64,000 nt of DNA from Stromatinia cepivora (lineage: Eukaryota > Ascomycota > Leotiomycetes > Helotiales > Sclerotiniaceae): NCBI GenBank assembly GCA_014898415.1, contig RCTD01000008.1, forward strand, positions 248,001-312,000. The letters run 5' to 3'. The notes below the pieces were generated by a model. It ran no database searches. It had not been told where the DNA came from and saw only the letters and a program-made list of their open reading frames with translations. The position numbers and the translations under genes are program-made. This document shows, one piece after another, positions 5,986 through 53,741 of this stretch (the stretch's first letter is position 1; every line of letters starts with the position of its first letter).

Positions 5986-6340
5986 TCAGGGCGTCCCCAA
6001 GCGGCAGATACTGAGGAACCGTAACCACCGACTCGATGCAAACCGTGTCAGGGGGTCCCCAAGCAATAAATACCGAGGAACTGTAACCACCGATTTGGTA
6101 CGTATTGTCAGGGTGTCCCCAAGCGGCAGATACTGAGGAACCATAACCATCGACTCGATGCAAACCGTGTCAGGGTGTCCCCAAGCAGTAAATACCGAGG
6201 AACCGTAACCACCGACTTGGTATGTACTATCAGGGTGTCCCCAAGCGGCAGATACTGAGGAACCGTAACCACCGACTCGATGCAAACCGTGTCAGGGTGT
6301 CCCCAAGCAGCAAATACCGAGGAACCGTAACCACCGACCT
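5986..6340. repeat. Dimeric minisatellite with alternating 62/60-bp half-units
   Basis: The anchor TCCCCAAGC begins at 5994, 6056, 6116, 6178, 6238 and 6300, so spacings are 62, 60, 62, 60, 62. Two half-unit types alternate: one carries GGCAGATACTGAGG and ACTCGATGCAAACC, the other AATACCGAGG and TTGGTA. The true period is therefore a 122-bp dimer. Every unit shares AACCGTAACCACCGA or a one-base variant. The frames open across it are artefacts of the period. Confidence 0.9.
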
Positions 6341-6946
6341 TTGTACGAAGTATATAAAGACGTTAGAGGAAATATTGCACGAGAATAATGTAGATAATAC
6401 TGCGATGGTCGATGTAGATGTAGGTGATAGAAGTGAAGATAGAAATGATAGAATAGAGATGAAGATAAACGAGATACCAAGCAGAAAAATTGATATTAAC
6501 AATAAGTGGTTGGATTCGCTTGTATGTATTGTGGGCTACGTTCACCTATGTTCACCAAGAGTGTAGCAATTAGAGGACGTAGAGGTTACCGTAACCAATG
6601 AATAAATGTAATTGGAAAAGAAAAAGTAATTGTAGGTGGTCCCACTTAAGCTGGTTTCAGCATGCGCTTTAGTGGGCGCACGCAAGACCACGGGCGAATG
6701 CAAGTTCAAAAAGAAAAAAGTACATCTAAATATATGGGACCTTCAGCATGTTTTTCTATCTCTCTCTATATGATCCGGTGTTCCGTAGAAAACACTGTCA
6801 CCGTCATGTGACCCGGTCTGTACAATATAATGCCTGCGTAGAATGAGGGCTGGCCTGTGCGGGGGTCCGTGCAGCCACTTTAGCTCGATTCTGTGCCTTA
6901 TGCTTTAGGGTTACCTCTTTATATCTTCATTTAAAATCACTTCATT
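6341..6946. other. Intergenic
   Basis: No supported gene. Sequence before 6947 contains a pyrimidine-rich stretch and is the presumed promoter of the following small gene. Confidence 0.4.
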
Positions 6947-7180
6947 ATGCCACGCCCGGGACGCTACACCATCTGCCGTACAAGGGTGCCGGCTACGTTC
7001 GAGGATACAAAATGCAGCCGGTGTATCAAGCGGGAGCAGGTGCCCTGGGCTGAGCGGACAGTCGACCGGTGCTCAACATGCAAGTGCGACCGGCCTGTAA
7101 GTGCTCAGATACCCAAGCTTGCCTTATTCTCTTCCCAGCCAACAGAGAGAACATCCAAACCCTTTCCCGTTCCATTCTGA
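6947..7180 (+). CDS. Small putative zinc-binding Cys-rich protein
   Basis: An ATG-led frame with two CxxC-type pairs (CSRC and CSTC, then C two residues on) plus an earlier Cys; the first 50 codons (6947-7096) are the convincing part. A GTAAGT donor at 7097 and CCCAG acceptor ending 7138 define a possible 42-nt intron. Because 42 is a multiple of three, spliced and unspliced forms both end at the same TGA. Spliced length is 63 residues, unspliced 77. No signal peptide. The family is not recognised; the Cys spacing merely suggests metal binding. Confidence 0.4.
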   Translation: MPRPGRYTICRTRVPATFEDTKCSRCIKREQVPWAERTVDRCSTCKCDRPVSAQIPKLALFSSQPTERTSKPFPVPF

Positions 7181-7430
7181 AGCCATTTTATTCTTCCTGA
7201 CTTGAATATCTTAGATGCCAAAGCCTAACAATATATTAGATAAATGATAAATCGAGCTTTATCCATAATACCTCCTTCTTTCTGCCTTCTCCTCCGCTCT
7301 TTCTTTCAATCTCTTCTTTTCCCTTTCCCTTACCCCCCTCTAATTGACGATTTCGTTGAAGATCATGTAGTAAGCCTTCCGCATTCCCTTTATTAATACT
7401 ACTTTCCTATTCTGTCTCATCGATATAAAC

Positions 7431-7970
7431 TTATTCTAAATTGATAAGCATCATTCGATCATCAACATCCATAACATTATCCAACTTAGTATCTCCATGA
7501 ATTACTCCATAACAAATTAATGCCTTATAAACTTCCCCTAGCTTTCTCTTAAAGTCTTTATCTTCTCCATATTTCATCATAATATCATATAATCTTTGAC
7601 CAACAATTTTCAAGAAAACCAAAGTAGGCGATCTATTGTATATTACCTCTCCATAGAAATAAAGTATGAATCTTCCTTGAAGAGACTGAAGGCAACGGTA
7701 TATACATTTTTCGACCTCAAACTCATCATCCCAATTAGGTTTACGTTTTTTGAGGATAATTGTAGGTGGTAGGAACCATTCGGGATAGAAAGGTTTGATA
7801 TATAAAAAGAAATTGAAAAATCTTTCAAATATCGAACGAATAAATAAAATCGGAATATAATCGAGGATCGATGGTTTTTTGATCTTGACTCGATAAACAA
7901 TTCGAAGTGAATCAATTCGTTCAGCAACAGTAGCAATAATCAATTCAGCCCTACCTCGAGCCCCTAACAT
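7431..7970 (-). pseudogene. Truncated protein-kinase-like gene
   Basis: The ATG at 7970 is preceded by an in-frame stop, giving 179 residues. A beta-3-like lysine (IILKKRK), an alpha-C-like glutamate (DEFEVEK) and a catalytic-loop-like motif VIHGDTKLDN are in the right order and spacing for a fungal protein-kinase-like (phosphotransferase) fold. The metal-binding position that should read IDLE or DFG reads INLE, and the frame stops at once after it, so the C-lobe is missing. The natural reading is a truncated, probably inactive relic; a short regulatory pseudokinase cannot be excluded. Locally AT-rich. Confidence 0.55.
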
Positions 7971-8349
7971 TTCCTATCAGCCTCATATAATTTGTGTTGT
8001 GGATTCTGATGAGTTCGGAGGACACTTCTAAAGGAAGAGCTGCAAAGGATCAGGTGGCAGAATTGAGAAGGCCGCTATGCATACTTGCTTGGCATTGGGC
8101 GTAACATCCTCAACGTAATGCCTCAGGCTATAACAGCGTAAATTCTGTGAAGTATAAGTTAGTGCCTATTAAAAGAATCAAACGGAAAACCCTCCCTCGT
8201 CAGCCTATTCAATAATGTCTAATATCTATTCTACAAAAATCAACCGACGAAAATGAACTCTGTTAGAAAGAGCCTCGACATAAACAATACTTTTTCGTCC
8301 CCCACATCGCACCTACACTCAAATCTGTCCAAAAAAAAACGAGGAAGCC

Positions 8350-8807
8350 ATGGCTGCGGTTGATAGAGGACACTTGGATGAGGAAAAGTTGACGGACGAT
8401 GCTCAGAGAGCAGCCCAAGCATGCCTAGAATTCCTCCTTCAAGCACGATACCGGCCTCAAGGAGATTATGAGATCTGCGACGATAGCCGTCTTAAAGAAA
8501 TTTCTGGCGCTTTTTATACAGAGTTTGCACCACTTGTCAAGGTACGGATTTGAAACATGGATTGGGATTTGGCTAATTTGCTATTTAGAAACGGAGTACC
8601 TGCGAAATCCGGCTCACAGCTCTACGATTCACAAAACGGGCGATGTTACCAGTGAAGGATGGGGCCTCCGTGGACTTAATTCCTATCATCATATCCAGCA
8701 GCCCGACAGTTGCGAACAAGGCTTTAATATTGGGATGGTCCTTGCATTTGACAAAGAATGAGATCGTGGAGCCGGAATGTTATTGTCTAGTAGTCTTGGC
8801 TCAATAG
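8350..8807 (+). CDS. Hypothetical protein, 2 exons
   Basis: Exons 8350-8541 and 8589-8807 are joined over a 47-nt intron (GTACGG..TTTAG) at phase 0 and give 136 residues. The first part is helical and charged (EEKLTDDAQRAAQACLEFLL); the second ends with a hydrophobic run and three cysteines. No signal peptide, and the family is not recognised. The TAG at 8805-8807 lies two bases from the stop codon of the opposite-strand gene, so the two transcripts must overlap at their 3' ends. Confidence 0.6.
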
Positions 8808-8809
8808 GG

Positions 8810-10358
8810 TTACCTTGTTGTAGTTGAATTGATGTTGACATCTGGAATAGTGAAAATCTGGGAGGCGTTCCACATATCATCAAACATTGCGAAATCATTC
8901 ATGGGGAATGAAGATGTCCAAAGGTCATCAAATTCTGGAGATAGGAAAGTTGTGGCTTTGAACATTTTTAGTTACGTGAGTAGAGAAATGATGTTTTAGC
9001 TTACTTATTTGATCTATGCCTTGCTGAACTGTCTCTGGTTCCTGCGGTGGATTCATTAGGTCTTCTTCTCTGGATTCATTTACAGAATTCTGCATCGTAC
9101 ATGCGCTGCCATTACCGATGGGATGTGGAGGATTATCTGTGCAACACGGTCAATGAGTTTTTCATCATGCAAAGTATATAAGGGAGGGTTTGATTATTGA
9201 GCTTACATCGATGGCTCGCTATTTGTGATAACATTTGGCTATGCTCGCCCTGGATAATTAAAGGTTGTTGCGGCTGGATCATGATCGCAGCAACGAGTCT
9301 TGGCTATGTATTAATGTTGACCGACAGCTGTCGCTTTGGATTTGGTTCTCCTTCGTTATGAATTGATAGTTTCCTTTTCTTGGATTTACTCCATGGTGAA
9401 AGACTTAGTTCCAACAGCGTTTCAACGTAAAACGTCGCCCTTTCCGCTCGATCAAGTATACCTGGTATCTCGTTCAGGATATTCGCTAGTTTGATGAAAT
9501 GGGATTTCCTACAGAAGCGGGATAATTAGAAAGATATAATGATTGCAATGAAGGTTTTCCACCTACAGATTAAAAGGAAGGTTATATACTGTAATGATAA
9601 TACCAAACTTCTTGTTCTCTAGGAATCTACTCCATTGTATCCCTACGAAGATACACTGATCCAAATTCGCCCTATTTATATTACTATTGTAATTATACAA
9701 ATATTCCCATATCTTTGTAACAGTGTTACTCTTGTCTTCCTTAGTAATACCAGTATGCCCTCACTTGATAGCCAAAGTTCTTGCTTCTATATCCCGAATA
9801 TGCCAGATGGCTAGGCTACCGATCACATCGAGAACTTTCGCAGCAGAGGATCTGACAATCTCAAACAGACCGCTATATAAAATGCTGTCAAGCAGTTCTC
9901 CTTTATTGACTAAACTTTGAGCATTCGTCATTTTGCAATAAACTTTTAACCCATTCAGCACATCCTCGAAATCAGTCGAGGCTTCGATCCTGTAACAATA
10001 GAGTGACAACTTTCTGATCTCGTATTGGCTGAATCCTTTCGTTTGCTGCAACAAAGGATATATAATTGGTGATTCAAATGATGCCGATCTGTTCTTGCCT
10101 TTACGCAATTCTACTGTCTGAAAGGAGAAAGATGAAGGCATTGAGAATAGCTCTTGGAGTCATATGAATATATCTGAACCCAAAAACTGGTCACAAGGGA
10201 CCTGATAGCTTATTGAATATACAGATAATGCATCGAGAATGTTGATAGCCTCGCTCAATTTCTGTTTTGCCTGGGGATTATTAAGTTAATAGGAAATCAG
10301 CCTTGTCAATGGTGTAGGAAAATACCTCGTCTATGTCATGAATCTCGATGGCGCTCAT
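8810..10358 (-). pseudogene. Decayed 5-exon gene, fungal transcription-factor-like
   Basis: Exons 10358-10326, 10270-9567, 9508-9207, 9136-9005 and 8955-8810 join in phase across introns of 55, 58, 70 and 49 nt, giving 439 codons. In-frame TGA at 10162-10160, TGA at 9763-9761 and TAG at 9306-9304 interrupt it. The text around each stop continues sensibly, for example FI*LQELFSM. The second stop could instead fall in an alternative 81-nt in-frame intron (GTGAGG..ACAATAG). The KSKKRKLS and NPKRQ clusters look like nuclear localisation signals. The C-terminus is rich in Asp/Trp/Phe (FDDLWTSSF, FDDMWNAS), like an acidic activation domain. No Zn2Cys6 domain is present, so the factor call is tentative. 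Confidence 0.55.
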
Positions 10359-10449
10359 ACTTCATTTAACATTGTATTGTATTACAAGTGTTATGCTAAA
10401 CTTCCCTCACGTTAGGTTTGCCGTTGGGAGCTGATCTATTAAAGAGGAG

Positions 10450-10482
10450 CTCCGAGGCCAGAAAGTGGATCTGGCCTCGGAG
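10450..10482. repeat. Perfect hairpin, 12-bp stem and 9-nt loop
   Basis: CTCCGAGGCCAG at 10450-10461 is exactly inverted at 10471-10482. It is GC-rich in an AT-rich spacer, about 90 bp upstream of the start of the minus-strand gene. The remainder of 10359-10927 shows no gene I can support. Confidence 0.75.
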
Positions 10483-10927
10483 GCTGTTGACCGGAGGCTT
10501 TTGGACCGAATATCCAAGCTGGGGGGCGCAGCCAAACTCCGATCCCTGCTGCATATTTTTCGGTTAATATCAAAGATGTTTCCCTTTCACGCTAGTGCAG
10601 GCTATCAAAGTGCGTCTGGAAAAGATGCATGTATCTGTTCGCAAATCGATCGTGATATTTCACAAGATTAAGTCTTATTTTCTTCTATCTGCCGTTTTCT
10701 AAATATCGAAATGATAACGACGGAAATTTAAGGTGGCGTTTCCAGACCGTGGTGATGGATGCTATATTACTATAAGAGCAAGCTTGTGGAACGAGGCAAC
10801 CAGTGTGTGCTCTTCTCATCTTGTAGTACTACAACTTAGTTCGCCTTACTCTATCTCTCACCAAATTCTTCTCTCGTCTTTCCTGTTGGCTAAAGTTTGC
10901 CTGCATTCTTCAGCTGCCATACACACA

Positions 10928-11522
10928 ATGAACTCCCCTACCACCACCATAATCGCGGCCGGCGGCTCAAATCCTTCGGAGACCACTATAACCCAGGAGA
11001 TTACAGTCACAGTTAGTGACGAGAAAGTAACTGTATGTTACTCCAAATCTTGCTTGCCAAACCCCCCTGAAAAGTAACTGATCACACCCTCCCCAGTACG
11101 GATTTACTATCTTGTCGGAGATTTCTCCTGGTATTTACAGAGTATCGGGAGGCAAACAAGCTACTGAAGTCGCCGTGGAATCTCTAGAAACCACCCTAGC
11201 AGGAACCCTACTCCTTGCTGAATATGACGGTCGTCGTAGGAGAATATTGACTTGGTTATGGCAGTATGGATTACGCAGCCATACTTCCAACACATTTCGA
11301 GCGGAGGTCAATGTTCCAGATCTAATTCAGCCAGGAAGAGAGTTTTGGATGGTTGGAGGTTCTGCTTTCATCAAAATTCACGAGTCTGTCTTAGAAAAGA
11401 AATGGTCTGGAAGGTTGTATATTGCGGGATGTAGGCGGCGGCATCTTATCCTATTTAAGCATCTCTGGAATGATCTTCGAGGGTATCTTACTCATTTGTT
11501 TCCTCGCTGGACACAGGATTGA
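10928..11522 (+). CDS. Hypothetical protein, 2 exons, possibly frame-damaged at its end
   Basis: Exons 10928-11032 and 11097-11522 are joined over a 64-nt intron (GTATGT..CCCCAG) at phase 0 and give 176 residues. The N-terminus is Thr/Ser-rich, followed by YGFTILSEISPGIY and a hydrophobic/charged domain. From about 11418 a different frame reads better (GGGILSYLSISGMIFEG, then LLICFLAGHR), which looks like a membrane segment. It is followed after a TGA by a further open stretch with DDEEEVWVEW. The true 3' end may therefore lie near 11640, with a one-base shift and a stop, and the present C-terminus would be an artefact of that damage. Family not recognised. Confidence 0.5.
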
Positions 11523-11807
11523 TACCAAAAATGTATTCTGGGCAACAGAACTTTGAGGATATACGAGCGGTTGGTACGCTGATGACGAAGAGGAAGTATG
11601 GGTAGAATGGACAGCCTATTGGAGGTACTAATTTTAAGTGGCTTCGACGCCTCTGTTCCGGTTGTGTTGGCAGGAGATGAGGATTATGTTACAATACGTT
11701 TTTTCTTTTTGACGCTGTTGCCGTCTCTCCATAGATCACAGCCTAGATTACTTCTTCTAATTTTGTTACCCTGCCGATATCTCCTGATTACCTATCGTAT
11801 GTATGAT

Positions 11808-11998
11808 ACTTCTTAACCTTGCAGGAGGATACAGAATACGAAGATGCCCTGTGATGTACTCTGGTCAGGCTGCCAGGGTCTCGTTTGCCTCATCTGAGGT
11901 TCCAAGAAATGCTACTTCTCAACCTTGCAGGAGCATGTATGCCCTGTGATATACTCTGGTCAGGCTACTAGGGTCTCGTTTGCTTCGCCTGAGGTTCT
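11808..11998. repeat. Direct repeat, two copies about 106 bp apart
   Basis: Copy 1 starts at 11808 and copy 2 at 11914. Both carry AACCTTGCAGGAG, then TGCCCTGTGAT.TACTCTGG, then TCGTTTGC and CTGAGGTTC. The surrounding 11523-12409 has no other supported feature apart from the possible gene tail noted above. Confidence 0.8.
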
Positions 11999-12409
11999 GC
12001 CCCGATTTGCTGTCGGTAAATATCTAAATAGCAGCCAAGAAAGGAAAAGAACTTCTACTATGTAAATATCCTTTATGGAGTCATTTGTGCCTACACCCTG
12101 GCCTTGTACCATTTCACAAAATTTGCCTTGTCTCCCTACCTGTTCACTGTGGACAGTTCATCATTGTGGGACTTTTGTTTGACTTCGAAGTAGAGAACTA
12201 GGGCATTGAGATGGGTAACTATACTCCTATTTGCTAAAGAAATTATGATTATATATAGATGTTCGTGTCCCTAGGAAATCTGGAGTCTTAAAGTCTTGAC
12301 TCTGTCATACTTTGTCTTTCCCACCAGACCAGACTTTACCTCCCTGACTCTCATACCCGTATTACTTGGAACTGCCTACCTGTCCGACTTGGCCGGACCT
12401 GAAAATAGG

Positions 12410-13461
12410 ATGGCTGAAGGAGGTCGTCATAGTAGGTAAATCTCAAAATGTAGTAGTTTTTACTAAAAGAAGATATTATATCTCGACAAACTCTCGAAGA
12501 GATCGATTAAAAAAACCCAAGATCTTGATGAACTAAGAGCTGAGCTTCTGGAAGATCCCGGCAACGAAAGCATGCTGGAAAACTTAAACAAGATGGAAGA
12601 GAGTATGCGAAATTTGATTCCTAAATCCGCAATGCTAGCCCAGATCATTGTAGGAGGTGAAGGATTCAGGGAGGAGTTAGCGGCAAAGAGGGCACAAGCC
12701 GCACAAACCGGTCCTGGTACCAATAACTGTGAGACACTCGGATCCCGCTTCATCACACCAGAGTGTTGGAAATCCCCTTATGGCGCTATTATCGACAATG
12801 GTATCACCAAAAAGATTGTTGGTTCTCGCCCGATTGGAAGGGGAGCTCAAATGTTACTGCAGTGGGTCAATGAAGGTGCTTCTCTTCCATCATTCGAGCT
12901 GGTGGCATCGAGTGTGTATAAAGGCAAGCTCAAAGAGTACCACGGTGGCGATATGAAGATGGGTACCAAAGAAGAGCTTGAAAAGAATTATTCTCTATCT
13001 AACTGCACTCTCGGCGGTGTTGCTCAAGTTCGCCGAATTGATACCACAAAAGACATCTCTAGGGCACCCACAACTTATATCTCTATTAGTCATCAAGGGG
13101 TAGACAAGTGGTTCAGCAGATCGAATCTGATCGCAGTGTTTGGAGAACAGATAACCAAGGCAGAGGCTGACTACCTCAACAAGGCTGGTTCAAAACGTGT
13201 GACAAAGACTCCTGGATGCAAGAGCACAAGAGTGAGCAAGAAAAGGAGGAACGAGGAGAAAGAAAGGACTGAAAAAGAGGAAGAAAACAAGTGAGTAATT
13301 ATACTACAACGTCGATTAAATATACAATTAACATTAATACCAGTTCCGAACGTCCGATAGGCATAAGCCTGGGAGCTAAAGTGGATGACATTGATATTTT
13401 AAAGGAAGATGTCATAAAATTGAAGGCAGGATTAAAACAATTGTTAGAAAGCCTCAATTAG
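12410..13461 (+). CDS. Hypothetical 310-residue protein, 3 exons
   Basis: Exons 12410-12435, 12502-13290 and 13344-13461 have introns of 66 nt (GTAAAT..GAAGAG) and 53 nt (GTGAGT..ACCAG). The first exon adds MAEGGRHS and is supported by the coding look of the sequence upstream of the internal ATG at 12572. The N-terminal 60 residues are helical (DELRAELLEDP). The middle domain contains GSRFITPECWKSPYGAII and TYISISHQGVDKWF. The C-terminal 80 residues are very basic and acidic (KKRRNEEKERTEKEEEN) and end in a helical LKAGLKQLLESLN, likely a coiled coil. Family not recognised; probably nuclear from the KKRR cluster (inference). Confidence 0.65.
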
Positions 13462-13761
13462 ACTACGTTTGGGCAGCAAGGAGAACACCCTATAAACGAT
13501 AAGACTGCATAGGACAAAATGAGGTTACTACATGTATTGCTTTAGAATGTTAACTTAGAATTCGAATGGAGTTTCATTTTTCCAGTAGGAAACCGAAAGA
13601 GAAAAACGGAAATACGTTTATGATTTTTCCAAAACGCAACACCGAAGGGTATAACAAATCGTAATGAAAAAAAAGTCATATATGCTTGCGATTAACTCGA
13701 AAATTGAAACAATTATCAATTAGATTACTGAAAAATATTCAAAAATCGATTCGACCTCAGA

Positions 13762-14305
13762 ATGTACTTCCACATCGTTGACCTGACGGATTACTACCTC
13801 GGTTGGGAAACCCTCCAAAAGACGAGGATCAATAGTTTATCCGACCGGGAAGTGTTGGAGGAGTTAAGAGATATAATGGCGGGGCGCGGCTACTCGTGGT
13901 ACGGTATCGCTCGGGGACTTCATAGACGATATCGCAAGGGCCTTGTCTCATTGGAACATTTCGATCCAGGGAACGTTCTGTACAAATGGAACGTTCTCTA
14001 TAACGAGAAAGTTTCATGGGAACGGCGGAAATGCCCTTCTTTTTTGAGTTTCAGGTTCAATTGCACATACTTATTTAATTTGAAAATGATCCCAATTGCA
14101 ACGGGACCAGGACAAAAAGGTATGCTATAGCCTATTTAGACTCTTTTTGGGGGATGTAACTAATGATCGATTTTGCTTAGGCAAGCGTATAATGGAGGAG
14201 AACCTCGATGACATTTTCTTGTCCACAAGCGATGCATATCTTACTATCGGCGATCTGTGTCATGCGATAAGCATTGGGATCTTCGAGTGTGAAGACGATA
14301 AGTAG
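13762..14305 (+). CDS. Hypothetical protein, 2 exons
   Basis: Exon 1 is 13762-14119 and exon 2 is 14181-14305, with a 61-nt intron (GTATGC..GCTTAG). Phases match and give 160 residues. The N-terminal half (VLEELRDIMAGRGYSWYGIARGL) is rich in Arg/Tyr and well formed. The stretch around residues 90-115 is less convincing and could hide an additional intron. The second exon encodes EENLDDIFLSTSDAYLTIG and an acidic end. Family not recognised. It is co-oriented with the preceding gene and separated from it by 300 bp of AT-rich spacer. Confidence 0.5.
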
Positions 14306-14761
14306 AACAGCATCAGAGCCAAAGTCAGGTTACTATTACCACGAGGGGCTAGAGTTTCGTGTTGAATATATACACGAACTGGTGGAAGATTAGATGTATG
14401 ATAGGGATCAGCTTCATAATGGATCACCAAATACTTATTCAGTGGGTACGTTGAGAAATAAGGATGTCTGTTCTAGGTGTTTCAGGAGTCAGAGTAGCAA
14501 TGAAAGAAAATCTAATGAGAACAAGTTGGACTTGTAAGGTGTGCGAATGAAGTGGGAATTGAACTTGCCAACTCGTGAGATCTTACAAATCAACTTGTGG
14601 ATAATCCGAATGAGATCGAATGGAGAACAAGTCAGAAAATAAAACAAAATGATCGAGAAATCTCGCCCAACATTTCCTTTCACTTCTACCAAAGTATTCA
14701 TATCTGTATATCTAGCTTCTGAAATCCTATTGCCAAGCTTAATATCCTCTCAACATATCTT
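14306..14761. other. Intergenic
   Basis: No supported gene; a 70-codon minus-strand frame (14489-14701) lacks coding character. Confidence 0.4.
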
Positions 14762-16322
14762 TTAGTTCCTGCTTCTGGTCTCTACGTTACGAATTCGAAC
14801 TTCGTAAAGAGCATCCAAGATATCACTAACAGTGTTTGAAATTTGGTACTGTTTCTGAGGACTCGTTGGCATCAACGCTTCAATAAAAGGTTCGAGGCTT
14901 TCGGTTCTCTCCTCGGCAGCAAGTTCCAGAAATTTAAGTGCGCTTCTGGAATCATGATCGAAAAGGGGAAATCTTCTAATTATTGGAAAAGTTAATTAAT
15001 TGAAATCAATACAAGTAACTAGGATAGAACTTACATCTTAGAGAGCAGCTAGCACCTTTTCCTTTAAGGTGACAGTTTGCACAGGAACCTTGCGAAAACC
15101 CATCAAGTACTACACATTCTTTCCATGTTCTCAAAGAATAGGTTCTGTTCGCACAGACATTGCAACGAGAACTTGAGATCTCTCCCCTTTCCTGAACAAG
15201 ATGTGCTTCGATATTAACGTTATTTAGCATTCTCCCATCAGTTTCAAAGACTGTACTCATACTATGCCCAATATAATTGAGATTTCGCTTTATTTCAAGC
15301 TTCTTGATTTCTTCAATTCGTCTAGTAGAGGCGCCTGGGATTGTAAAAGGTATGATGAATTTTTGGTACCGCGGAATGGAAAGTCCGGCTCGAGAATGCT
15401 TGGATGGAATATCTGCACCAAAGAATGATTTTATTGATGTTCGCTTCTTTCACCCTTTCTGAACCTTATCAAATAAACTTTTGGCAACCTCAACATATCC
15501 ATTCTTTTTCAGTTCTACTAACTCTCGAGCTTTACATAGCTAAAGATCTTCATGCTCTGCCCTATCTCCCTCATATAACTCTGTATTCCAAGGTTTCTCT
15601 GCCTCCCGCACTTCTTGGTTTTTGTTTGTATTAGGGTAATTCACCATCTTCTCAAATTGTTACTCCATAGCATTCCATTCTGTATCCTCCTTATCTTGAC
15701 CATATTATTTAACAACTATATCCTCCACCCCATCTCGAACAATCAGTTTCGTAGTGTTCTGCTTTGTCATACCATACTCCGTAACGCCATACTCTATGGT
15801 GTCAAGCTCCGTAATATCCTGAGCATACTGCTCTACACCTTTCATTTCTGCAAACCTCTGAATATCCTGTTCTGCAATACCATACTCTGCCCCTTCCGGA
15901 TTCTTGATATACTGCTCTGCAGCCGTATTCTCTGCAGTATTCTCGGTATTCTGTTTTGTAATCTCAAGCACCGCACCCTCCTGAGTATACTGCTCTGTGG
16001 CTGTCATCTCTGCAGATACCGGAGTATGCTGTTCTATAGTATTATACTCCGCAACTTCCGTATTTTGAGTACATCCTTCTGTATCTGTGTACTCGGGAGT
16101 ATTCTAGATATATTGCTGTACAGTTGTATCCTCTGCAGCGTTCCGAACTTTGCTATACGCAATATCTTGTATATTCTGTCCCACAATCTTATGGATTCGA
16201 TGTTGTTTGTACTCCCCATTTTCAGTGGAATCATGAGTCTCGTGTATAATATATTCTGTAACTTCCAGGGTCTGATTCTTGATAACTGCATTTTCCTTTG
16301 TCCGGGGTGGTGAGGTTTCCAT
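14762..16322 (-). pseudogene. Gene with five in-frame stops; Cys-rich DUF3716-like region
   Basis: From the ATG at 16322 a single frame continues without shift to 15035 (429 codons). It is interrupted only by TAG 16106, TAA 15707, TAA 15662, TAG 15542 and TGA 15452 (first bases, minus strand). The first half is Glu/Gln/Thr-rich with degenerate repeats (EYGVTEYGMT). A basic stretch (KKRTSIK) follows. Then comes CNVC, a later lone Cys, CANC and a final Cys, which resembles the fungal DUF3716 cysteine motif (tentative). A GTAAGT donor at 15034 leads to a second clearly coding exon, 14975-14762 (SALKFLELAAEERTES). That junction is off by one base, so a further indel or an alternative splice is needed. 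The copy is non-functional. Confidence 0.7.
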
Positions 16323-17310
16323 AGTTTGCAAGTTTGGAAGGTTCAGTTTGGTCGAGATAGTTTGTGCATTGGAATTTCATGTATTAAACTTATAAACCAA
16401 TATATTAGTTCATTATATTAATAAATGAAAATAACGGAGTTCTTTACCTTACAAAAATGATAAACATTTTGGCTATATTGTTCTTTGAGCTTGTTGGTTG
16501 ATTAAAAGCGTATTCTATCTGTCGGTACAGCTTTTGAATGTGTTTTAACCATATTGATACGGAATTTGAGGGTTGTATAATCAAATAGTAAGCAGTGAAG
16601 ATGCGAAACAGATTTGTAGTAATGAACTTTGACAAACAGAAGCCTGAGAAGGAATCCCAGCTATATAAGTAAAAGGAATTGGACCAAAACAGGACCATAT
16701 TGCTCGAATCTGCTTTATGGTTCTAATCTGCTTTATGGTTCTGTTGGTAAGGCAAAATGTGAAGGAACACATACTTGTGCAGTTTATATACCTCGAATCG
16801 ATACTTCCTCTGATAATCGATTGGTGGAATATCAACCATTCGGGATTTACCCTTGAATGATACTGGGATAACGTCCGCAGTTAGACCTATACCTTGGCCT
16901 CATATACTCCTTATCATCATTTGATAAAGCATCAATCTGTTAGGAATACGAGGAGCCGCCAAAATACATCTGCAGTTCAGTATCAATCAGTTCTACCTAT
17001 CACTGTATGTATTACCCTTGGTTTTTATATATTTGGAACATTTTACAAATATCCCCATATAAAACTCTACTTAAAGCATATATACCCCTCCAATATTAGA
17101 TATTACATAGATAACATCTGCAGTTCAATATCAATCAGTTCTACCTATCACTATATATATTACCCTCGGCCTTTTATATATCCGGAATATCTTAGAGATA
17201 CACCTGGATAGAACTTTATTTCAAGCTCCATTTAGAGCAATACTACGTTTCGTATCTGGTTCGATTGTACGTAATGAATGGGTGTATTGAATACTTCAAA
17301 AATAAATTAA
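16323..17310. other. AT-rich decayed DNA with a duplicated segment
   Basis: A 74-bp segment at 16967-17040 recurs at 17115-17190 (shared CATCTGCAGTTCA and TCAATCAGTTCTACCTATCA). Most differences are transitions, such as CAGTATC/CAATATC and GTATGT/ATATAT. A 19-bp doublet (TGCTTTATGGTTCTAATC-like) lies near 16707. No gene is supported. Confidence 0.6.
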
Positions 17311-17518
17311 CGCCCAGATACTAAGATCCTAGAGACGAAGGAGGGTTTGCAGAACGAGGGTGTAAAGGAGGGCTTACAGGTTGTAAGAATAGGAGAATTA
17401 CAAATCTTCTTGCAAGAGGGTTTACTAGTAGGCTTACAGGAGGGTTTACAAAAGGGCTTATAGAAGGGCTTACAGGAGGACTTACAAAAAGACTTACAGA
17501 AAGAAAAGGGTTGGTAAA
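17311..17518 (+). pseudogene. Remnant exon with 12-bp GLQ[E/K] tandem repeats and an internal TAG
   Basis: The plus frame is open from 17311 and reads ILETKEGLQNEGVKEGLQ, then six exact 12-nt units at 17431-17502 encoding G/D-L-Q-E/K. In the third unit (17455-17466) the glutamine codon is TAG at 17461 where the others have CAG or CAA, so the nonsense change is visible by comparison with its neighbours. The frame ends at TAA 17516-17518. Parent gene unknown. Confidence 0.55.
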
Positions 17519-18073
17519 GGGAAAATGTACAGCATAATTTATAGATTAACTAACAGAAAAGGGGTTTATGAAGGGGCAATCTATTAAAAAGTGTAATTTG
17601 TTTAGGTTTACAATATAGTTAAATAAACATAAGGTCACATTACTAGAATCCGAAATTCTGTTCCAAAATCGAAAAACCGGTTCGAGAATCGAAAAACCGA
17701 TAAATATCATTATACCAAGTTTGGGAAATTGTTTTAGGGATGGCGGAGGTTTCAATAGGACATAGAGATTGCCCAATTCTCTTCAGTCTATGGTCGTATG
17801 TGAAGGTCTCGGTCTGGTTTTATTATATGATGAATGGCTGAGAGGTTGGATGGGTTGAATTGTGAAGTGATAAGCGAAGGTAGCTTCGTGACTTTGGTAA
17901 TGTTTTTTAATGGCTGAGATTATTCATTGATTCAAAGCTAGGTTTCGTTTATATATATATATATATATAATTTTCTTTGAAGTTGAGATCATTTGTGTTA
18001 ATCACTTAAGTTATTCACCCAAAGTTACACATCTGAGCTACCCATCGCAAAGGTAAGTAATTATCTCAAACTG
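17516..18073. other. AT-rich spacer with TA microsatellite
   Basis: A (TA)n tract lies at 17949-17969. A short doublet (TCGAAAAACCG twice) is at about 17668-17700. No gene seen. Confidence 0.5.
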
Positions 18074-18311
18074 CCTACCGTCCTATCTCACATAACTCGG
18101 ATTCTAATTACCCGCATCCAGCTAAAGTTGGGGAAGCTAAGCAGAATATATTATTGGAAGAATCAGTAAAGTAGATAATTTTGCAGAGTTTTATTATCTA
18201 CTTTTGGTTCATATCCATTGATATTTCCGGAATTTGGATGGAAGCGAGAAAAACTAGAGCTGGATGTGGGTCATTAGAATCCGAGTTATGGGAGATAGAT
18301 AGGGTGGTAGG
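18074..18311. repeat. Long imperfect inverted repeat (fold-back)
   Basis: The arm at 18074-18126 pairs with 18254-18311. The shared core CATAACTCGGATTCTAAT is exact and the rest differs at a few positions plus one short gap. Inside the 127-bp loop a second perfect inverted pair, AAGTAGATAAT / ATTATCTACTT, is centred near 18190, so the whole 238 bp could form one stem. No target duplication was identified. A MITE-like fold-back element or a hairpin-RNA locus are both possible. Confidence 0.75.
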
Positions 18312-18436
18312 TATTTATCCTCAGGTTCTTCTTATAGCTTACTCATTCAAAACTTTGAATTAATCTCCCATGCATGAAATGACAATCGGATAAGCACAAC
18401 ACAAGGCGCAACATCGACATCTATCACTAGACTAAT

Positions 18437-19812
18437 TCACGATCTCTTAAACTCTCCAAACCTCTTATACATCTCCGCCTCAAATATCTGCTGCATCTTA
18501 TAACTCTTCGGATCGCCAAACGGCAAGATATTACCAGCATAAAAGCAAGCCAATCCTTCTTCCCTATCAATACTCCACAACAAATTCGGTAATCCGCTCC
18601 AACAGAGAGTACCCTTTTTCTTGCCCCCCTCGATATCCTCCTCGATTAGTAACCCCCCTAATCCCCAATTCAATTTTCTCCCCGGAGGATGACTCGAAAA
18701 GAGTCCCTGGGAGTGAAATGCGCACACGAGGCTGGTACACATAACATGTACAGCTTTGGCGGAAAGCTGTGGCTTGAACATTTCCGCCGTGGTAGATTTC
18801 TTGAGTATCACTTCATCGTCGCGAAGAATCGAAGTGAGGATTTTGAGATATGAACTTGCCGAGCCGGCAAGCCCATGACCTCCAAAACAATCTTTTTGCT
18901 CAATGTCATAGGGAATCGCGTCGCTCCATTCTACTTTCCCACCATCTTCACAGTCATCGGAACCAAGGAGAGGATTAGCAATCTTCAAGCCGCTTCTCTG
19001 GGAAATTTTGACGAGTTTTTCTTGAACGTGTGGGTTGCGATCGCGATGGAATGTTATATCTTTGATATTTAGTGGGCCAAAAATATGGGCCTGGAAGTAG
19101 TCTTCTAGTGATTGACCATTGTTGAGACGGCTAATTAGGACGGATACCCAATCGAGACCGTAGCCATAGGCCCAAGATGTACCGGGTTCAAACAAAAGAG
19201 GGAGAGTAATGGACTTGAGCATCTCGGTTTCATGGGTACTCGTGGAGTCGATACCTTGAACGGCGCGGAATTTGATAAGTTCTGGGGTGAAAGTGTCATA
19301 GCCGAATCCGGAAGTATGGGTGATCAAATGTCTAGTATTTCCTCGTTAACGACTCCGAATATTCGGCTTTCCAATAACACGAGGCACCTTACCTCAGAGT
19401 GATCTTGTTCTTAGCTGGCTTGAGAATAGGAACTTCCTTTCCATCGGTCCCGGTTTCAAAGTCTTCAAGAATTTGAATATCTTTGAACTCCGTTAAAATG
19501 GGGGAGAGATCATCATCAAGACCAATTTGTCCCTGCTCTACGCATCGCAAACCAGCGATAGAAGTTATTACCTTCGTGCATGATGCCATAATGAAAGTAG
19601 AGTCGAGCTCCATTTGCGAGTCAGGTGTTGCTGGTCCGAAGGCTTTTTCATATTTGAATGATCCTATTCTTTGTTAGTATTTGAGTGTCTCAGACGAGGT
19701 AAGTAAATCAAGAAGAGGAATTTCTACCAGTGGAATCGCTGGCAACAAGAACAACACCAGGGATGTCTCGAGCTGATGTTGCGACTTCGAATTGTTGTTC
19801 AAGAGTAGCCAT
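18437..19812 (-). CDS. Beta-lactamase-fold serine hydrolase/acyltransferase (EstB/LovD-like)
   Basis: Exons 19812-19728, 19663-19393 and 19331-18437 join in phase (introns 64 and 61 nt) to give 416 residues, the usual size for this family. Catalytic Ser56-x-x-Lys59 lies in MASCTKVITSIAGL. HLITHTSGFGYD (from about residue 120) is the family signature. The class-C tyrosine is probably Tyr174 or Tyr176 in SWAYGYGLDW. GGHGLAGSASSYLKIL lies downstream. Members hydrolyse esters or move acyl groups, as LovD does in statin assembly; substrate unknown here. There is no signal peptide and no polyketide synthase in the window, so a biosynthetic role cannot be argued. It looks intact although decayed sequence surrounds it. 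Confidence 0.9.
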
Positions 19813-20771
19813 GCTTAGGACTGTTTGCGTTATCCGTGATATGTGTTGAGAGATTGAGGAAAGAAAACTAAAGGTGATGTGGGATTAGAGGTAATCATTC
19901 GGAATCATAGCATCACTATATAGTCCATAGATCAGTAATCAACTTTTCTGCTCAAGCCCTATTCGCCCACCAAGCCTTGCATACCGGATGTGGGCATGTG
20001 TGTATACGGAGTGAGTTCACCAATGAAGGCAGGCTGTAATGAATTGACCTTAAACCTTCCCTACGAGAGAGGTTCACATTCTGTATGATCGACAGGGTCT
20101 AATTGGAGGCTTGTAGAAACATATCATTTCTTCAACCCAATGCTGGCGGATCTGTTTGGTGTTACTAGGTAGTTAGTATTACAACTATGCAATAACAACA
20201 AGCAGCAACTACTAGGTAGCTTGCTAGGAGTCACCGGTGAAAAAAGGAGCTTGAAAGAGTAAGTAATGTAAGACATTTTTGAGACACATATTGCTGTTTT
20301 TCCTATCTTTTGGTGCTGCTTTAAAGAAGATCTCGATCGAATTTTGAAGATTTTAATGAAATTTCAACAATCTTGTGATTCTGAAGATTTTGAAACTTCT
20401 AATAGGTTTTGAATAACTATTAAATAAGTTTTGAATGATTTTATTAGTAAATCTCGAAATTTACAATACTTTAACCGGTTGGTTTTCATCATACAAATTT
20501 TCAATCAGTGTGATGATATTATTGGTCAAAACCCTTGTATATGGGGCAAGCACGGCCATTTTTTGGCGTGTTTTACAATACTTCCTCCATCAACCTCTGT
20601 AAATGCAAACTCCATCTAAGGTTAGACATAATTCTGAATATAAATTGTCTGCCTCATATTGAAGGCATTTACCGGCTCAACACCGGTATGAGTTCCAAAA
20701 GTTAACTTCATTGTAGCTTAGCCTAAAGCGTTGAGCTGAAATTTTGAGCATCGGGACATAACCCATCTTGA
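19813..20771. other. Intergenic, promoter side of the hydrolase gene
   Basis: No supported gene. A short repeat of the ATTTTGAAGATTTT kind occurs around 20340-20410. A 62-codon frame at 20431-20619 is not convincing. Confidence 0.4.
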
Positions 20772-21203
20772 ATGGAATGGAATAATAAGAATTGCATCTC
20801 AAGCTCCCAACAAATCTCAAGAACCAAGCAAGCCTTGATAAATTGGAGTTGCATGTCTGAATGTTCCGGTGTTCGTCTAACAACACTATTACTATTGCAG
20901 GACCTATGTGTGAAGTATCAAGTGAGGTTCACATGCAAGGACAACAACAACTCTCATATATTGTGAAACCAGGAGCCATTCTTTCTTTTTGGTGAAGTTA
21001 GTTTTTGGCCGTGTAATCATGGCATTGAGGGCTGCAACTGGGACGTGAGGATATACCAACTCCCCGTCACCTTGGCTGGGGCTAGTACTGTTTCCGGTGC
21101 AGCTTTAATCTTCTATGACAACGGTGTATTGGACGGGCTCGACTTTCTTCTCGGGTGTACCTCAACTACATTACATAGAAATTATAAGTGGAAGTTGCAT
21201 TAA
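20772..21203 (+). pseudogene. Gene fragment with internal TGA
   Basis: One plus frame runs from an ATG at 20772 through TGA 20964-20966 to TAA 21201-21203. A CTATTGCAG acceptor-like site sits near 20901. The part after it reads as protein on both sides of the TGA (KYQVRFTCKDNNNSHIL, then NQEPFFLFGEVSFW and CNWDVRIYQLPVTLAGAS). Cysteines and aromatic residues suggest an extracellular domain, but I do not recognise it. The upstream exon is unclear. Confidence 0.35.
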
Positions 21204-21487
21204 CTCCGTCTCTCGATCCACAGCTATTCAAAGTGTATTTCCTGCGGCCTATTCTAGCATCCCAAGCATCCTGCTTACCGAACCCACTGCCATCTAGTGT
21301 CTGGACTGATACTCATCACTTTCTCTCTCTGAACTGGTTTGTTTCTGTCGGAACGTCATGTGACCAACCTCAAAGGGAACCGTACCACTAGCGACTCTCT
21401 AGCCCATTCCCCTTCAATATAAATAGTACCCTCTTTTTATAGTGTAGCAATGAAGAATAAATAACATACAATGCCAATAATAGTACT

Positions 21488-21802
21488 ATGCAATTTGGTA
21501 CCACCGAAGTGATACCAACAGTTTCCCTTTTCAGCGAGTTCGACAACGACGCGAAGATCCTGGTATTTACACCGGAGAATACAGGACAATAGCGACGCCA
21601 CAACTTACTGGTCACTTATACAACGTTCCGTTTCAAAGCAGTCTACAGGATCGGCATGGAGCGGAATTTTCACATCGTGGAAACAGCTTCATGCGCTCCT
21701 CCATTTGGACATTTCGATATGGCAAAATGGTCACTCGATCTTGTTGGCCTAAATGCCGATCCTGGATCCCTGGTTGAAAGCGCAAGTCATTTTTTAATTT
21801 GA
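21488..21802 (+). pseudogene. Gene fragment with internal TAG
   Basis: An ATG at 21488 opens MQFGTTEVIPTVSLFSEF. The frame meets TAG at 21590-21592 and continues for 69 more codons (FRFKAVYRIGMERNFHIVE, LDLVGLNADPGSLVES) to TGA 21800-21802. Both sides have clear coding character in the same frame. Family not recognised. Confidence 0.4.
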
Positions 21803-31901: not shown

Positions 31902-33730
31902 ATGCTCACGTTGTGGTTCTTTCTCTTGCTGCCAGTGACTCAGACTGTGCAAGCAGCTTTGAGCATCGTAGTATCCAGTTCTCAAGCTACAAACCCGGCT
32001 TCTAACGCCGTTGATGGAAAATCCAGCACATTTTGGCATAGCGAATATAGCCCTGTGCCCCACTACCACACACCATATACCTTGACACAGGCTCCTTGCA
32101 GCTTCTCAATGGGTTCACCTATCTTCCACGTCAGGATGGAAATCATAATTGGAACATTGGAGCATATTAATTGGCTGTAAGTACAGACAATAAGACATGT
32201 GAACCACGGTTGCGATCTCCACCTTCTAAGATGATGTTACGAAAAAGACTGTAGGGTTTGATAGTACACAAGCTCGATACTTCCGTTTGAATGCTACTTC
32301 CGAAGCTGGAAACTGTGGCCAATGGACAAGCGCAGCATAATTCGGTTTCTTACTCGCGCCTACTGTTGTCGGAGGCCTATGGGTGTGGGGCCCTGTCATT
32401 AACATGCCGCTTGTACCTGTTGCTGGTTTTATTGAGTACTCTACAGGAAATATTTGGACTTTCGCAGCATATTTCAGCCGTGTATAACTTTACAACTGGC
32501 GCTACATCATCGGTCAATGTCTCTAATACTCAGCATGATATGTTCTGTCCTGAGATGTCTTTAATTTTTGACGGAAAAGCAATTGTCACCGGTGGGGACA
32601 CTGCAAATAAGACGAGCATCTATGACTCTTCCACCGATCAATGGGTTGCAGGGCCGGTTATGAAGATTCCTCGCGGTTACCAGTCAACGACTACAACATC
32701 AACAGGAAAGGTCTTCAATATTGGGGGATCCTGGAGCGGTGGGTATGGCGGAAAAATGGAGAGATTTACGACCCTAGCACTAATACACGGTCTCTACTTC
32801 CAGGTTGTCCAGTCGCACCTATGCTCACAGCCGACGCACAAGGTGCTTTCCGTACTGATAATCATGCTTGGTTGTTTGCATGGAAAAATGGCGCTGTATT
32901 CCAGGCTGGTCCTAGTAAAGCAATGAACTGGTATGGAACAACTGCTACTGGCTCTCAAAAGGCTGCAGGTCTTCGCGCTTCTGATATCGACTCCATGTGT
33001 GGAAATGCAGTTATGTATGATGCAGTCAACGGAAAGATCTTCACAGCAGGAGGATCTCCAAGCTATCAGAATTCGGATGCAACTAAGTAATAATGTTCAC
33101 CTCATCACCATTGGAAGTCCTAACGAGGCACCTACAGTACAAATCCTAAAATCAATGACTTACAAACGAGCATTCGCAAATTGTGTCGTGTTACCTGATG
33201 GAAAGGTACTTGTGACCGAAGGCCAACCATATGCCGTTCCTTTCATTGACACTGATGCTGTGTTGACGCCAGGGTTGTGGGATCCCACGACGCAGACCTT
33301 CACAATTTTACCCCCTCATACCATACCAAGAACATATCACAGTATAGCCCTTCTCATGCTCGATGGAAGAGTCTTCACCGGCGGCGGAGGATTATGTGGA
33401 TCAAGCTGCGCCACAAACCACGCCGATGAACAAATCTACCGTCCAGCCTACCTTTTCACCTCCAATGGAACTGCTGCCATCCGTCCCGTTATCTTCTCAG
33501 CTATATCTACTGTTGCTGTGGGAGGAACAGTCACAATCACAACCGATACCGCTGTAACCAGTTTCTTAATTACTCGATATGGATCAGCGACCCATACTGT
33601 AAATACAGATCAAAGGCGAATCGCATTAACGCCTGTAACGGCAAGTGGAAGTACATACACCTTTACGATTCCGAATGATCCTGGAATTGCACTACCAGGA
33701 TACTGGGCTCGGAAGTTCGGAACCTGGTAA
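31902..33730 (+). pseudogene. Galactose oxidase, heavily disrupted
   Basis: The ATG at 31902 opens a good signal peptide, then an F5/8 type C (discoidin) domain (NPASNAVDGKSSTFWHS). The oxidase fold follows in pieces: HDMFCPEM (radical-site Cys), RGYQST, DNHAWLFAWK, MCGNAVMYDA, RTYHSIALL (Tyr-His), ATHTVNTDQRR (His). The pieces lie in different frames. One base is missing in the A-run near 32754, one is extra near 33087, and there are stops such as TAA near 32168 and 32337. The C-terminus ends abruptly after LPGYW, where a beta-strand segment normally follows. Every catalytic residue survives, so inactivation looks recent. Secreted enzyme by family; copper-radical oxidation of galactose and similar alcohols. 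Confidence 0.85.
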
Positions 33731-44085: not shown

Positions 44086-44325
44086 ATGTACGATCCTTCA
44101 GAAAACACCCCAAGTCAATCTCAAGCGGAGCCTCACTACCGCAGGGAAGACCGTAAGTCATCATTATTTCCTTTCGTACTTGATATTTTTTTGGCTAAAT
44201 TAAATCTGTTTAGTGGAGTTGAGTGTGGATCAAAAGCCAAGTCGACTGGTAAGGATTTGGAGTTGGCTTCGACTGGACCGTCTACTACGGATGGGCTGCG
44301 CAACGGTTACCCGCAGGGCGGATAA
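44086..44325 (+). pseudogene. 5' end of a gene cut by a TIR element
   Basis: Exon 1 (44086-44152, MYDPSENTPSQSQAEP...) splices in phase over a 61-nt intron (GTAAGT..TTTAG) to an exon beginning at 44214 (LELSVDQKPSRLVRIWSW). At 44294 the sequence turns into the terminal repeat of the mobile element below and the frame stops at 44325 inside it. The remaining gene is not recognisable on the far side. Confidence 0.45.
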
Positions 44326-44962
44326 TGGTTCTGGTGGATAATCTGTGGATAATCCACTAACGGGATGGATAATTGAAGAATCTGAATGAGTATTCATAAA
44401 TAATTGATGGATTATTCACAAATATTTATAGATATTCATTATTTATAGATTGATAAATAATCTATATAGATTGATAAATATTCATTTATTTTTGAAGCTA
44501 TTCCTATATTATTATATTAATTTTTATATTAATCTTTATGAATTATATAAATTATTCATTAATTTATAGATTATTTATAAATAATCTATTAATCTATAAA
44601 TTATTTATAGATAATGTTGGAAATGAGGCCATCATAGAATTAGAATTGAGGTCACGTGATCACAATGGTGCACAGACCATATTTGGGGATAACCTCAATT
44701 CTACTCCTACTAGAATTATAGATCCTTAGTTCAACCTACATAGTCAACAATACTACTACTTCCTGCACCAAAACTTAACAGATAATTTATCAATTTATGA
44801 ATAGATAGATAATCTGTAAATAATCTATAGATAATCTATATAAAACAGATTATTTTAAAATCTTAATGAATAATTTATAAGACAGATAATATCTTTAATA
44901 AATAACCCACAGGACGGATTATCTGCAGGTACCCGTGGATTGCTGGTTATTTCTGCGCAGCC
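44294..44962. mobile_element. TIR (MITE-like) element, 669 bp, host of a nested solo LTR
   Basis: It begins GGCTGCGCAACGGTTACCC and ends with the inverted GGCTGCGCA (TGCGCAGCC). The right flank is TA; the left flank is TG, possibly a mutated TA target duplication. Its left end matches the element at 50747 over the first 24 bases. The interior consists of AT-rich palindromic filler (ATAGATTGATAAATA variants) and GGATAAT motifs. No coding capacity. Confidence 0.7.
44615..44780. mobile_element. Solo LTR, 166 bp, with 5-bp target duplication
   Basis: It starts TGTTGGAAATG and ends CTTAACA, giving TG..CA termini, and is flanked by GATAA at 44610-44614 and again at 44781-44785. It is inserted in the AT-rich interior of the TIR element, so it is younger than that element. 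No internal retroelement sequence remains, as expected after LTR-LTR recombination. Confidence 0.8.
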
Positions 44963-50041: not shown

Positions 50042-51190
50042 TCATTCTACCATGTTTGCCCTAACCTCTTCTTCTACCCTGCCAACCCAAACCCAAACCC
50101 GGCGCACCCCCACTCCTCCAAATCCCGCCCCAGGACCTCTACCACATCCCACACCATCCATTCCTCCAGCAACTCCCCCAGCAAATCCTCCCTGTCCACC
50201 ACTACGCGACCGCCCTCTCATATCCACAGGAACATGATGTTTAACTTTTCGATCCATCCCAATCCCCGGATATCTTTATTACCCACTACAGAGGGTGGTC
50301 TTGTAAGACCTCGTCCCTTATGTTGCAATCTCATAGCGTTAATTGGATGATCTATGGGAGTGTTTGTGTTAGTTTTATTAATCTGGATATGGCTAGTTTG
50401 CACTTCAAACCCATGAGATTTGCGATTGGATGATATTCATTCGGACTACTACAATGACATCTTCAATATCCTAATCTCAAATACCCAATCCACAAAGTCT
50501 TAGGCTAAGACCTTGCGATCCCAAGTCCTAAAACCACGTACCTACTTACCCATATATATATAACACACAAAAAAGAGATAAAAAAATCACACTCACTAAT
50601 AAGCCAGTCCGGCGGCACATAACCAGGATTTCTAAATGCTCCTTGACGAAGTAGATTAGATATCTCCATTCGTTGTTGTTGTAATTTTTGTCGTTGTTCT
50701 TGTATATAATTCGGGTTATTTGCCATTCTGCTATTTGCAGCTTGTAGGCTGCGCAACGGTTACCCGCAGGACGGATAATAGCTTTGATAGATAATCCACA
50801 GAACAGATTATCCGCGGATATCCATGGATGACGGATAATTTATATGCAGCCTAGCGGCTTGGATATATGGATTTGGAGTTTCCACCGCTGTTGCCGTATG
50901 CATTTTGAAGGGGAAATTCTGAGAAGCGGAGCCTGAAAAGCCCCTCCAAACCCCGTGTTTATATGCTGAGAAACTCCACCTCCACCACCACTACCATACC
51001 CAATTTGCCGGGTTAAATTCCGAGTAATAATTCGAGTAGCAAGTCATGAAGGAATATAATCATTTCCATTATTAGCAACACTTTTTAATCCTACCTGATT
51101 AGGTACATATCCTCCATTAGAGTTAGAAGTTTGAGGGAATCCCGCGGCGCTCCCCTGAGCAGCACCCGTCGCCTGAGCAGGTGAATGAAC
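50042..51190 (-). pseudogene. Gly/Gln-rich gene split by a TIR element
   Basis: Upstream pieces (51190-50855) read PAQATGAAQGSAAGF, GGYVPNQVGLKSV, then TGA near 51016, then TRQIGYGSGGGGGVSQH. Across the inserted element at 50747-50851 the coding look resumes (LQAANSRMANNPNYIQEQ, RQKLQQQRMEISNLLRQGAF, NPGYVPPDWL) and reaches a GTGAGTG donor near 50605. A Gly/Arg-rich block (DMRGRSRSGGQGGFAGG) at 50257-50042 is probably a later exon. RGG-like and Q-rich segments suggest an RNA-binding or regulatory protein (weak inference). The nonsense codon, apparent shifts and insertion make it non-functional. Confidence 0.45.
50747..50851. mobile_element. Short TIR (MITE-like) element, 105 bp, TA target duplication
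   Basis: It begins GGCTGCGCAACGG and ends ATGCAGCC, flanked by TA at 50745-50746 and 50852-50853. The first 24 bases equal the left end of the 44294 element, and the right half matches that element's right end with mostly transition differences, so it is a shorter member lacking the AT-rich filler. Confidence 0.75.
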
Positions 51191-53736: not shown

Positions 53737-53741
53737 ATAAG

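Follow-up and report, generated by a model that had tools for sequence, protein, structure and literature searches.

Two differently broken genes in a 64-kb stretch of the Stromatinia cepivora genome: probable RIP-like mutation of duplicated DNA and apparent ordinary decay

Stromatinia cepivora is the onion white rot fungus. The stretch of DNA analysed here (the window) comprises positions 248001-312000 of contig C8, 64 kb of a genome of 55.67 Mb in 48 contigs. A preliminary description of the window reported a cluster of at least five stop-bearing gene frames and ascribed them to repeat-induced point mutation (RIP) or similar deamination spilling over single-copy DNA. This cluster consists of three unlike things: a duplicated broken gene (gene A), a decaying DUF3716 gene (gene B), and frames at chance level. 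The frames at 8810-10358 and 14762-16322 belong to real broken genes, whereas those at 17311, 20772 and 21488 are of a length that chance supplies, as judged against 60 random 64-kb sequences.

Gene A lies in a segmental duplication at 8228-10458 (no strand assigned), the second copy of which occupies C28:57845-59572 and 60392-60880 at 77% identity; gene A is not single-copy. Its main exon is read on the minus strand from 10273 to 9566, a frame of 236 codons with two in-frame stops and a third directly at its end, and the C28 copy carries seven. ATG-started frames of this size with two stops are expected 0.03 times per interval of this kind and the relative P0010 aligns to it, and we read the frame as a real exon on this sequence evidence. 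It aligns at 38% to V497_06511 of Pseudogymnoascus (598 amino acids, function not known), the sole protein match at E up to 0.01 among 2353 candidates, and the pieces of gene A gave no Pfam match above cut-off. The gene probably continues in another frame of the minus strand at 9004-9513, with four stops, where homology to P0010 backs coding for the beginning only. No single frame spans 8810-10358 with the three stops first reported for it (the least is 23), so that count requires an intron-containing model.

Between the two copies there are 411 transitions and 64 transversions. The window has C or G opposite T or A in the C28 copy at 299 sites, and the reverse holds at 112. When the differences were polarised with a relative on C17 (453 sites, leaving out 18 where all three sequences differ; C17 alone differs at 84), the C28 copy showed 36 GC-to-AT changes, 10 AT-to-GC changes and 3 transversions, and the window copy 23, 15 and 4, respectively. 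GC content is 32.5% in the C28 copy and 41.1% in the window copy, and the C28 copy has been mutated more heavily. Its seven exon stops stand opposite five Gln and two Trp codons of the window copy, and GC-to-AT changes suffice for five of the seven (a single change in three, a double one in two). The alignment of the copies is broken by twelve gaps, nine with lengths not divisible by three. A second stretch of gene A (9517-8980) was left uncounted, since stops common to both copies fill the frame in which it was read. The preliminary description remarked that a single C-to-T or G-to-A change separates each stop from CAA, CAG, CGA or TGG. This is literally so, but by the genetic code it holds for any stop codon.

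A dispersed repeat of about 180 bp at 21340-21524 (no strand assigned; 40 matches listed including the window, 70-100% alike, on many contigs) served as the mutation background. In 29 of 30 loci, the window among them (one was dropped for having fewer than 150 matching bases), it shows 144 GC-to-AT changes, 64 AT-to-GC changes and 94 transversions, that is, 208 transitions to 94 transversions, from which the duplicate differs at p=5.5e-9. The repeat is SINE- or MITE-like (short interspersed element or miniature inverted-repeat transposable element), and the flanks of some copies (L061, L062, L064, L067) have less than 20% GC, far AT-richer than most of the collected sequence. Seven other low-copy repeat pairs of the window have transition/transversion ratios of 1.45-3.44 (p from 2.8e-12 to 0.028 against the duplicate, uncorrected). 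Two shorter pieces stand outside this seven-pair test, of which 11903-12223 against the copy at C8:1.49 Mb (40:18) differs from the duplicate (p=0.0015). A ratio above 4 occurs in three of 46 pairwise comparisons of at least 300 bp, namely both pieces of the 8228-10458 duplicate and a transposon-like pair (13.2).

This second pair comes from a 1.68-kb AT-rich repeat at 52061-53738 (no strand assigned; 28% GC) with 151-bp direct terminal repeats (52062-52212 and 53589-53739), which looks like a non-autonomous element of the long terminal repeat type. Forty of 438 first-look candidates in the genome were scored, and full-length copies among the matches listed are 81-85% alike. Its part at 52887-53747, used as a positive control for RIP-like mutation, shows 158 transitions and 12 transversions (p=2.3e-10 against background), with 74 and 84 changes in the two copies. 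Ordinary pseudogene decay throughout, in which a transition- and AT-biased spectrum acts on relaxed genes with no repeat-specific process, would fit gene B (p=0.24, see below), and even the 180-bp repeat has 144 GC-to-AT against 64 AT-to-GC changes and one short repeat piece stands at 40:10. It does not yield 411:64 or 158:12 from a 208:94 background and is very unlikely; for the duplicate, simple decay was rejected.

In the duplicate the rate of C-to-T change differs little with the 3' base (A.35, C.30, G.38, T.31; p=0.34), and CpA sites account for 101 of the 299 changes, near their share of sites (p=0.54). In the transposon-like pair the rates are A.35, C.38, G.18 and T.33. Standard RIP indices (product >1.1, substrate <0.75, composite >0) were all satisfied in none of the 64 1-kb windows of the 64-kb stretch, nor in any of 476 windows of 500 bp, which cover 247.6 kb from 51 sources after removal of overlapping loci and six of which have less than 20% GC. 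The composite index is -0.81 at 8810-10358, -0.37 at 14762-16322, -0.44 at 20772-21203, -0.67 at 21488-21802 and -0.40 in the C28 copy. Within 8810-21802, a 208-bp array coding for GLQ (Gly-Leu-Gln) units is the only index-positive stretch (composite +2.51, the highest among the stretches tested; product 3.17; substrate 0.65), probably due to its TTACAG-rich unit. Three tandem 122-bp units lie at 5986-6351, and 6001-7000 (composite +0.14) is one of two windows of the stretch above zero.

Indices at background had been set beforehand as a finding that would refute RIP, and apart from the short array this is what the window shows. This does not decide the matter: the indices are built on CpA targets, for which the tested repeats show little or no preference, and so are blind to the type of mutation seen in the duplicate. 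Canonical RIP as recognised by index was rejected, the array's value reflecting its composition, and the absence of CpA preference and of positive indices leads us to class the process as RIP-like.

Gene B was described as a frame with five stops at 14762-16322, and this is borne out. Its exon 1 (15036-16322, minus strand) encodes a DUF3716 protein over 429 codons with exactly five in-frame stops and no frameshift relative to its relatives; no such frame arose in the 60 random sequences. Membership of the family rests on a PF12511 match at 15036-15206 of the minus strand (E 4.1e-12, 46.3 bits, cut-off 22). A probable exon 2 follows an intron at 14765-14974 (minus strand; limits inferred) and aligns to the C-termini of P0004-P0007. 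The relatives P0001-P0003 are intact across exon 1. Introns, also named in advance as a possible source of the stops, probably account for part of the stops in the raw frames (after 15036 in gene B, close to the beginning of gene A). They do not account for the five of exon 1, through which the intact relatives read. Four of these five align with Gln in P0001-P0003 (Lys once, in P0003) and the fifth with Thr, Thr and Arg. Under the background spectrum 59% of nonsense routes are GC-to-AT, so four of five stops at Gln positions are unremarkable.

The frame kept across 429 codons could suggest functional genes whose stops are bypassed by readthrough or RNA editing. Where four of the five stops align with Gln, A-to-I editing of UAG would produce Trp, and the C28 copy of gene A carries seven stops; we consider this explanation hardly credible. 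The preliminary description saw frames otherwise intact as unlike random decay. For gene B this is not decisive, as the odds hinge on the indel rate.

No close copy of gene B was found in the genome; DNA relatives are 70-73% alike over part of the gene only. At the 177 N-terminal codons where P0001-P0003 agree, 87 are the same in gene B, 41 differ by GC-to-AT changes, 13 by AT-to-GC changes and 21 by transversions, with one ambiguous and 14 multi-step; the conserved C-terminal part adds three, one and two. The N-terminal counts do not differ from background (p=0.24), and those obtained with P0001 alone (67, 24 and 43) likewise agree with it (p=0.53). The duplicate-type spectrum is rejected under all three choices of sites used; for the N-terminal counts, p=3.3e-13 with a partly assumed spectrum and 3e-8 and 2e-12 with the polarised C17 counts. 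Gene B exceeds two intact members of the DUF3716 family, each compared with single relatives, in GC-to-AT changes (41/75 against 27/84, p=0.006; 67/134, p=0.011), as expected for a freely drifting gene. On its sequence, and with some doubt, we regard gene B as a case of ordinary decay.

These counts bear on the proposal that canonical RIP or deamination leaks from repeats into adjacent single-copy genes. Several low-copy repeats lie at 7.1-12.2 kb and stop about 2.5 kb from gene B. The repeat at 7102-7944 (minus strand) has copies on C9, C2, C12, C28, C30 and C4, and its window copy is rich in singleton GC-to-AT changes: 34, with 15 AT-to-GC changes and 9 transversions, against 5, 23 and 6 on C9, 15, 25 and 15 on C2, and 27, 23 and 28 on C12 (GC-to-AT versus the rest, p 3.2e-5, 0.0012 and 0.0087, respectively). 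The contrast is weaker over the shorter part shared with the copy at C28:10861 (window 19, 14 and 5; C28 19, 12 and 6; C9 3, 11 and 6; C2 10, 20 and 15). A second repeat, at 11563-12203 (no strand assigned), has copies on C1, C12, C13 and at C8:1.49 Mb; its window copy shows a GC-to-AT excess in its second part (17, 4 and 6) and none in its first (4, 10 and 4), where the C8:1.49-Mb copy has 33, 7 and 6. From these uneven spectra the region carries patchy C-to-T marks. In the excerpts of PMC12543289 and PMC11969663, the DIM-2 route of Neurospora crassa mutates single-copy DNA flanked by repeats, and the GC-to-AT surplus of gene B over intact family members points the same way. Gene B, however, rejects duplicate-type spectra, the indices are at background, and gene A is duplicated. 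Leakage is thus quite unlikely: the C/G-to-T/A hypermutation first described is real, but it is located in duplicated DNA, and spill-over finds no support in a gene that is near background and far from the duplicate (p 3e-8 or less).

The other three frames are probably either no genes or uninformative. The plus-strand frame at 20772-21203 has a single stop over 144 codons. Chance predicts 0.63 frames of this kind per interval, and 45% of random intervals contain one; the frame has no second copy in the genome and no Pfam match above cut-off. The plus-strand frame at 21488-21802, also with one stop and no Pfam match above cut-off, begins within the 180-bp repeat, and 4.65 of its kind are expected. 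The GLQ-coding array of 12-bp tandem units (17311-17518, plus strand) contains one TAG, and 27 frames of its size are expected. For the three kinds of frame (20772, 21488 and 17311) the interval yielded counts of 6, 15 and 46, more than the random sequences, with real genes counted in. The first two would be products of chance, and the array a low-complexity sequence with one changed unit.

Cytosine methyltransferases are candidate agents for changes of this kind. PF00145 matches lie at five loci, on C32, C4, C20, C8 and C24, and searches of PDB and NCBIfam confirmed the proteins as cytosine methyltransferases and added nothing further. The C32 locus codes for a large C5 methyltransferase, which also matches BAH at a score under the cut-off and which we take to be DIM-2-like. 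The C4 and C20 proteins contain the motif SPPCQ, presumably typical of RID/Masc1, and by this motif they may belong to RID/Masc1. The C20 protein is EAF04_008017 and has relatives in Sclerotinia, Ciborinia, Botrytis/Botryotinia and Monilinia. At C24 (G000:C24:748846-750388) a further DNA-methylase-like locus has one matched frame with one TAG and one TAA, reflecting introns or a broken copy.

Methylation induced premeiotically (MIP) acts on duplicates, is not restricted to CpA, and methylates without direct mutation. Context-free methylation of repeats in this manner, with 5-methylcytosine then deaminating slowly and spontaneously and no acute RIP, would agree with the nearly flat context, with the large C32 enzyme and its sub-threshold BAH match, and with the weak strand clustering (130 runs against 144.7 expected, p=0.038). 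Among the window's other repeats of similar divergence, most lack a high transition/transversion ratio, and two methyltransferases carry SPPCQ, one with relatives in several genera of Sclerotiniaceae. We find this explanation unlikely, though deserving of some weight.

Separate causes probably underlie the broken frames: RIP-like mutation of duplicates with relaxed sequence context, and ordinary decay. We infer a RIP-type enzyme as the cause of the changes in gene A. Such a process would convert C:G into T:A in duplicated DNA and would have struck both copies of gene A, the C28 copy more, making most of their stops, with the genome's methyltransferases, of putative class and role, as its likely agents. 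Lacking CpA preference in the gene duplicate and the transposon-like pair, it would go unseen by CpA-based indices. Its marks are found in these two pairs, gene B having a near-background spectrum, the excess of transitions over the background is strong in both, and both copies are mutated in each (299 and 112 sites by copy in the duplicate). Gene B, having no close copy, would have lost its function and be decaying under a GC-to-AT-biased background mutation, as its spectrum suggests.

Several observations weigh against this reading. Polarisation leaves 25 apparent AT-to-GC changes among 84 transitions and drops the 18 all-different sites; two of the seven C28 stops need an additional A/G difference of opposite direction next to the C-to-T change; and each of the two window stops, opposite Gln codons in C28, requires two changes of opposite direction. 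The other short piece outside the seven-pair test (11939-12203 against C1) has a ratio of 40:10, indistinguishable from the duplicate (p=0.20), and the 180-bp background is itself a repeat, which the process may have touched to some degree. When changes of either direction in the duplicate are pooled, the 3' base has an effect (p=0.033, CpG highest), as does the 5' base (p=0.001). The context of the transposon-like pair is not flat either (3' base p=0.014, CpG spared; 5' base p=0.011), and this pair is AT-rich and possibly saturated. The claim on context depends on a single gene duplicate and a single transposon-like pair of 861 aligned bases. CpA observed/expected is 0.78-0.83 in AT-rich windows against 1.09, and there may be a weak CpA bias. 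Gene B departs from background at p=0.042 where at least two relatives agree (68, 17 and 35), and together with its GC-to-AT surplus over intact members this may reflect some RIP-like share. The odds of five nonsense changes without a frameshift range from 0.0007 to 0.27 with the indel rate used.

Elsewhere in the window, a galactose/glyoxal-oxidase-type gene with WSC domains runs from 22976 to about 27300 on the minus strand, and a second locus at 32933-33730 (plus strand) carries the same oxidase end domain. A 47-bp inverted repeat lies at 18083-18298 (89% complementary, arms 122 bp apart), and a 50-nt direct repeat at 44294-44343 and 50747-50796 (88% alike, 6.4 kb apart). A stop-bearing frame at 29711 had no match in the Pfam scan, and Rfam and tRNA scans found nothing.

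More broadly, S. cepivora may have a RIP-like system that mutates the cytosines of duplicated DNA largely whatever the next base, one that CpA-based surveys would miss, so that RIP would be under-counted here and perhaps in other Leotiomycetes; we hold the evidence on this to be evenly balanced. Genome surveys score RIP by CpA-based indices, according to excerpts of PMC7882544 and PMC8959702, and the conclusion of a 2025 kingdom-wide study (excerpt of PMC12543289) is that RIP-like defences have a preference for CpA in common. Titles and the beginnings of abstracts among the papers searched gave no report of RIP or of a dinucleotide preference for S. cepivora, including under the name Sclerotium cepivorum. 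The copies of the gene duplicate differ at a third of the C/G sites of the window copy, the transposon-like pair has 13 transitions for each transversion, and both are index-negative. If this is general, RIP is under-counted in such fungi, and the Sclerotiniaceae, for which both CpA and CpT signatures have been published, would offer a test bed for methyltransferase differences that alter target context.

The changes in S. cepivora resemble MIP in affecting duplicates and in not being restricted to CpA, but MIP itself methylates DNA and does not mutate it directly. As in RIP of N. crassa, duplicated DNA is struck, C:G is changed to T:A in both copies, stops are made, and C5 methyltransferases, putatively of the kinds concerned, are encoded; unlike it, the S. 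cepivora pairs show no CpA preference and negative standard indices. The published systems that follow are described from excerpts of the papers cited. In Botrytis cinerea and Sclerotinia sclerotiorum, of the same family, the RIP signature also reaches past CpA, to CpT (Amselem 2015, PMC4352252, which also names MIP), whereas in the two S. cepivora pairs CpC is struck about as often as CpA, and in the gene duplicate so is CpG. Monilinia, also of the Sclerotiniaceae, shows index-positive windows and classical CpA changes, together with CpG and CpC double changes and GpC depletion (PMC8959702), in contrast to none of 476 windows here. CpA is less preferred in Monacrosporium haptotylum (PMC3828140). 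Trichoderma reesei likewise has an altered target preference, with CpA about equal to CpG and CpC least preferred (PMC5496416); in S. cepivora CpC is indistinguishable from CpA.

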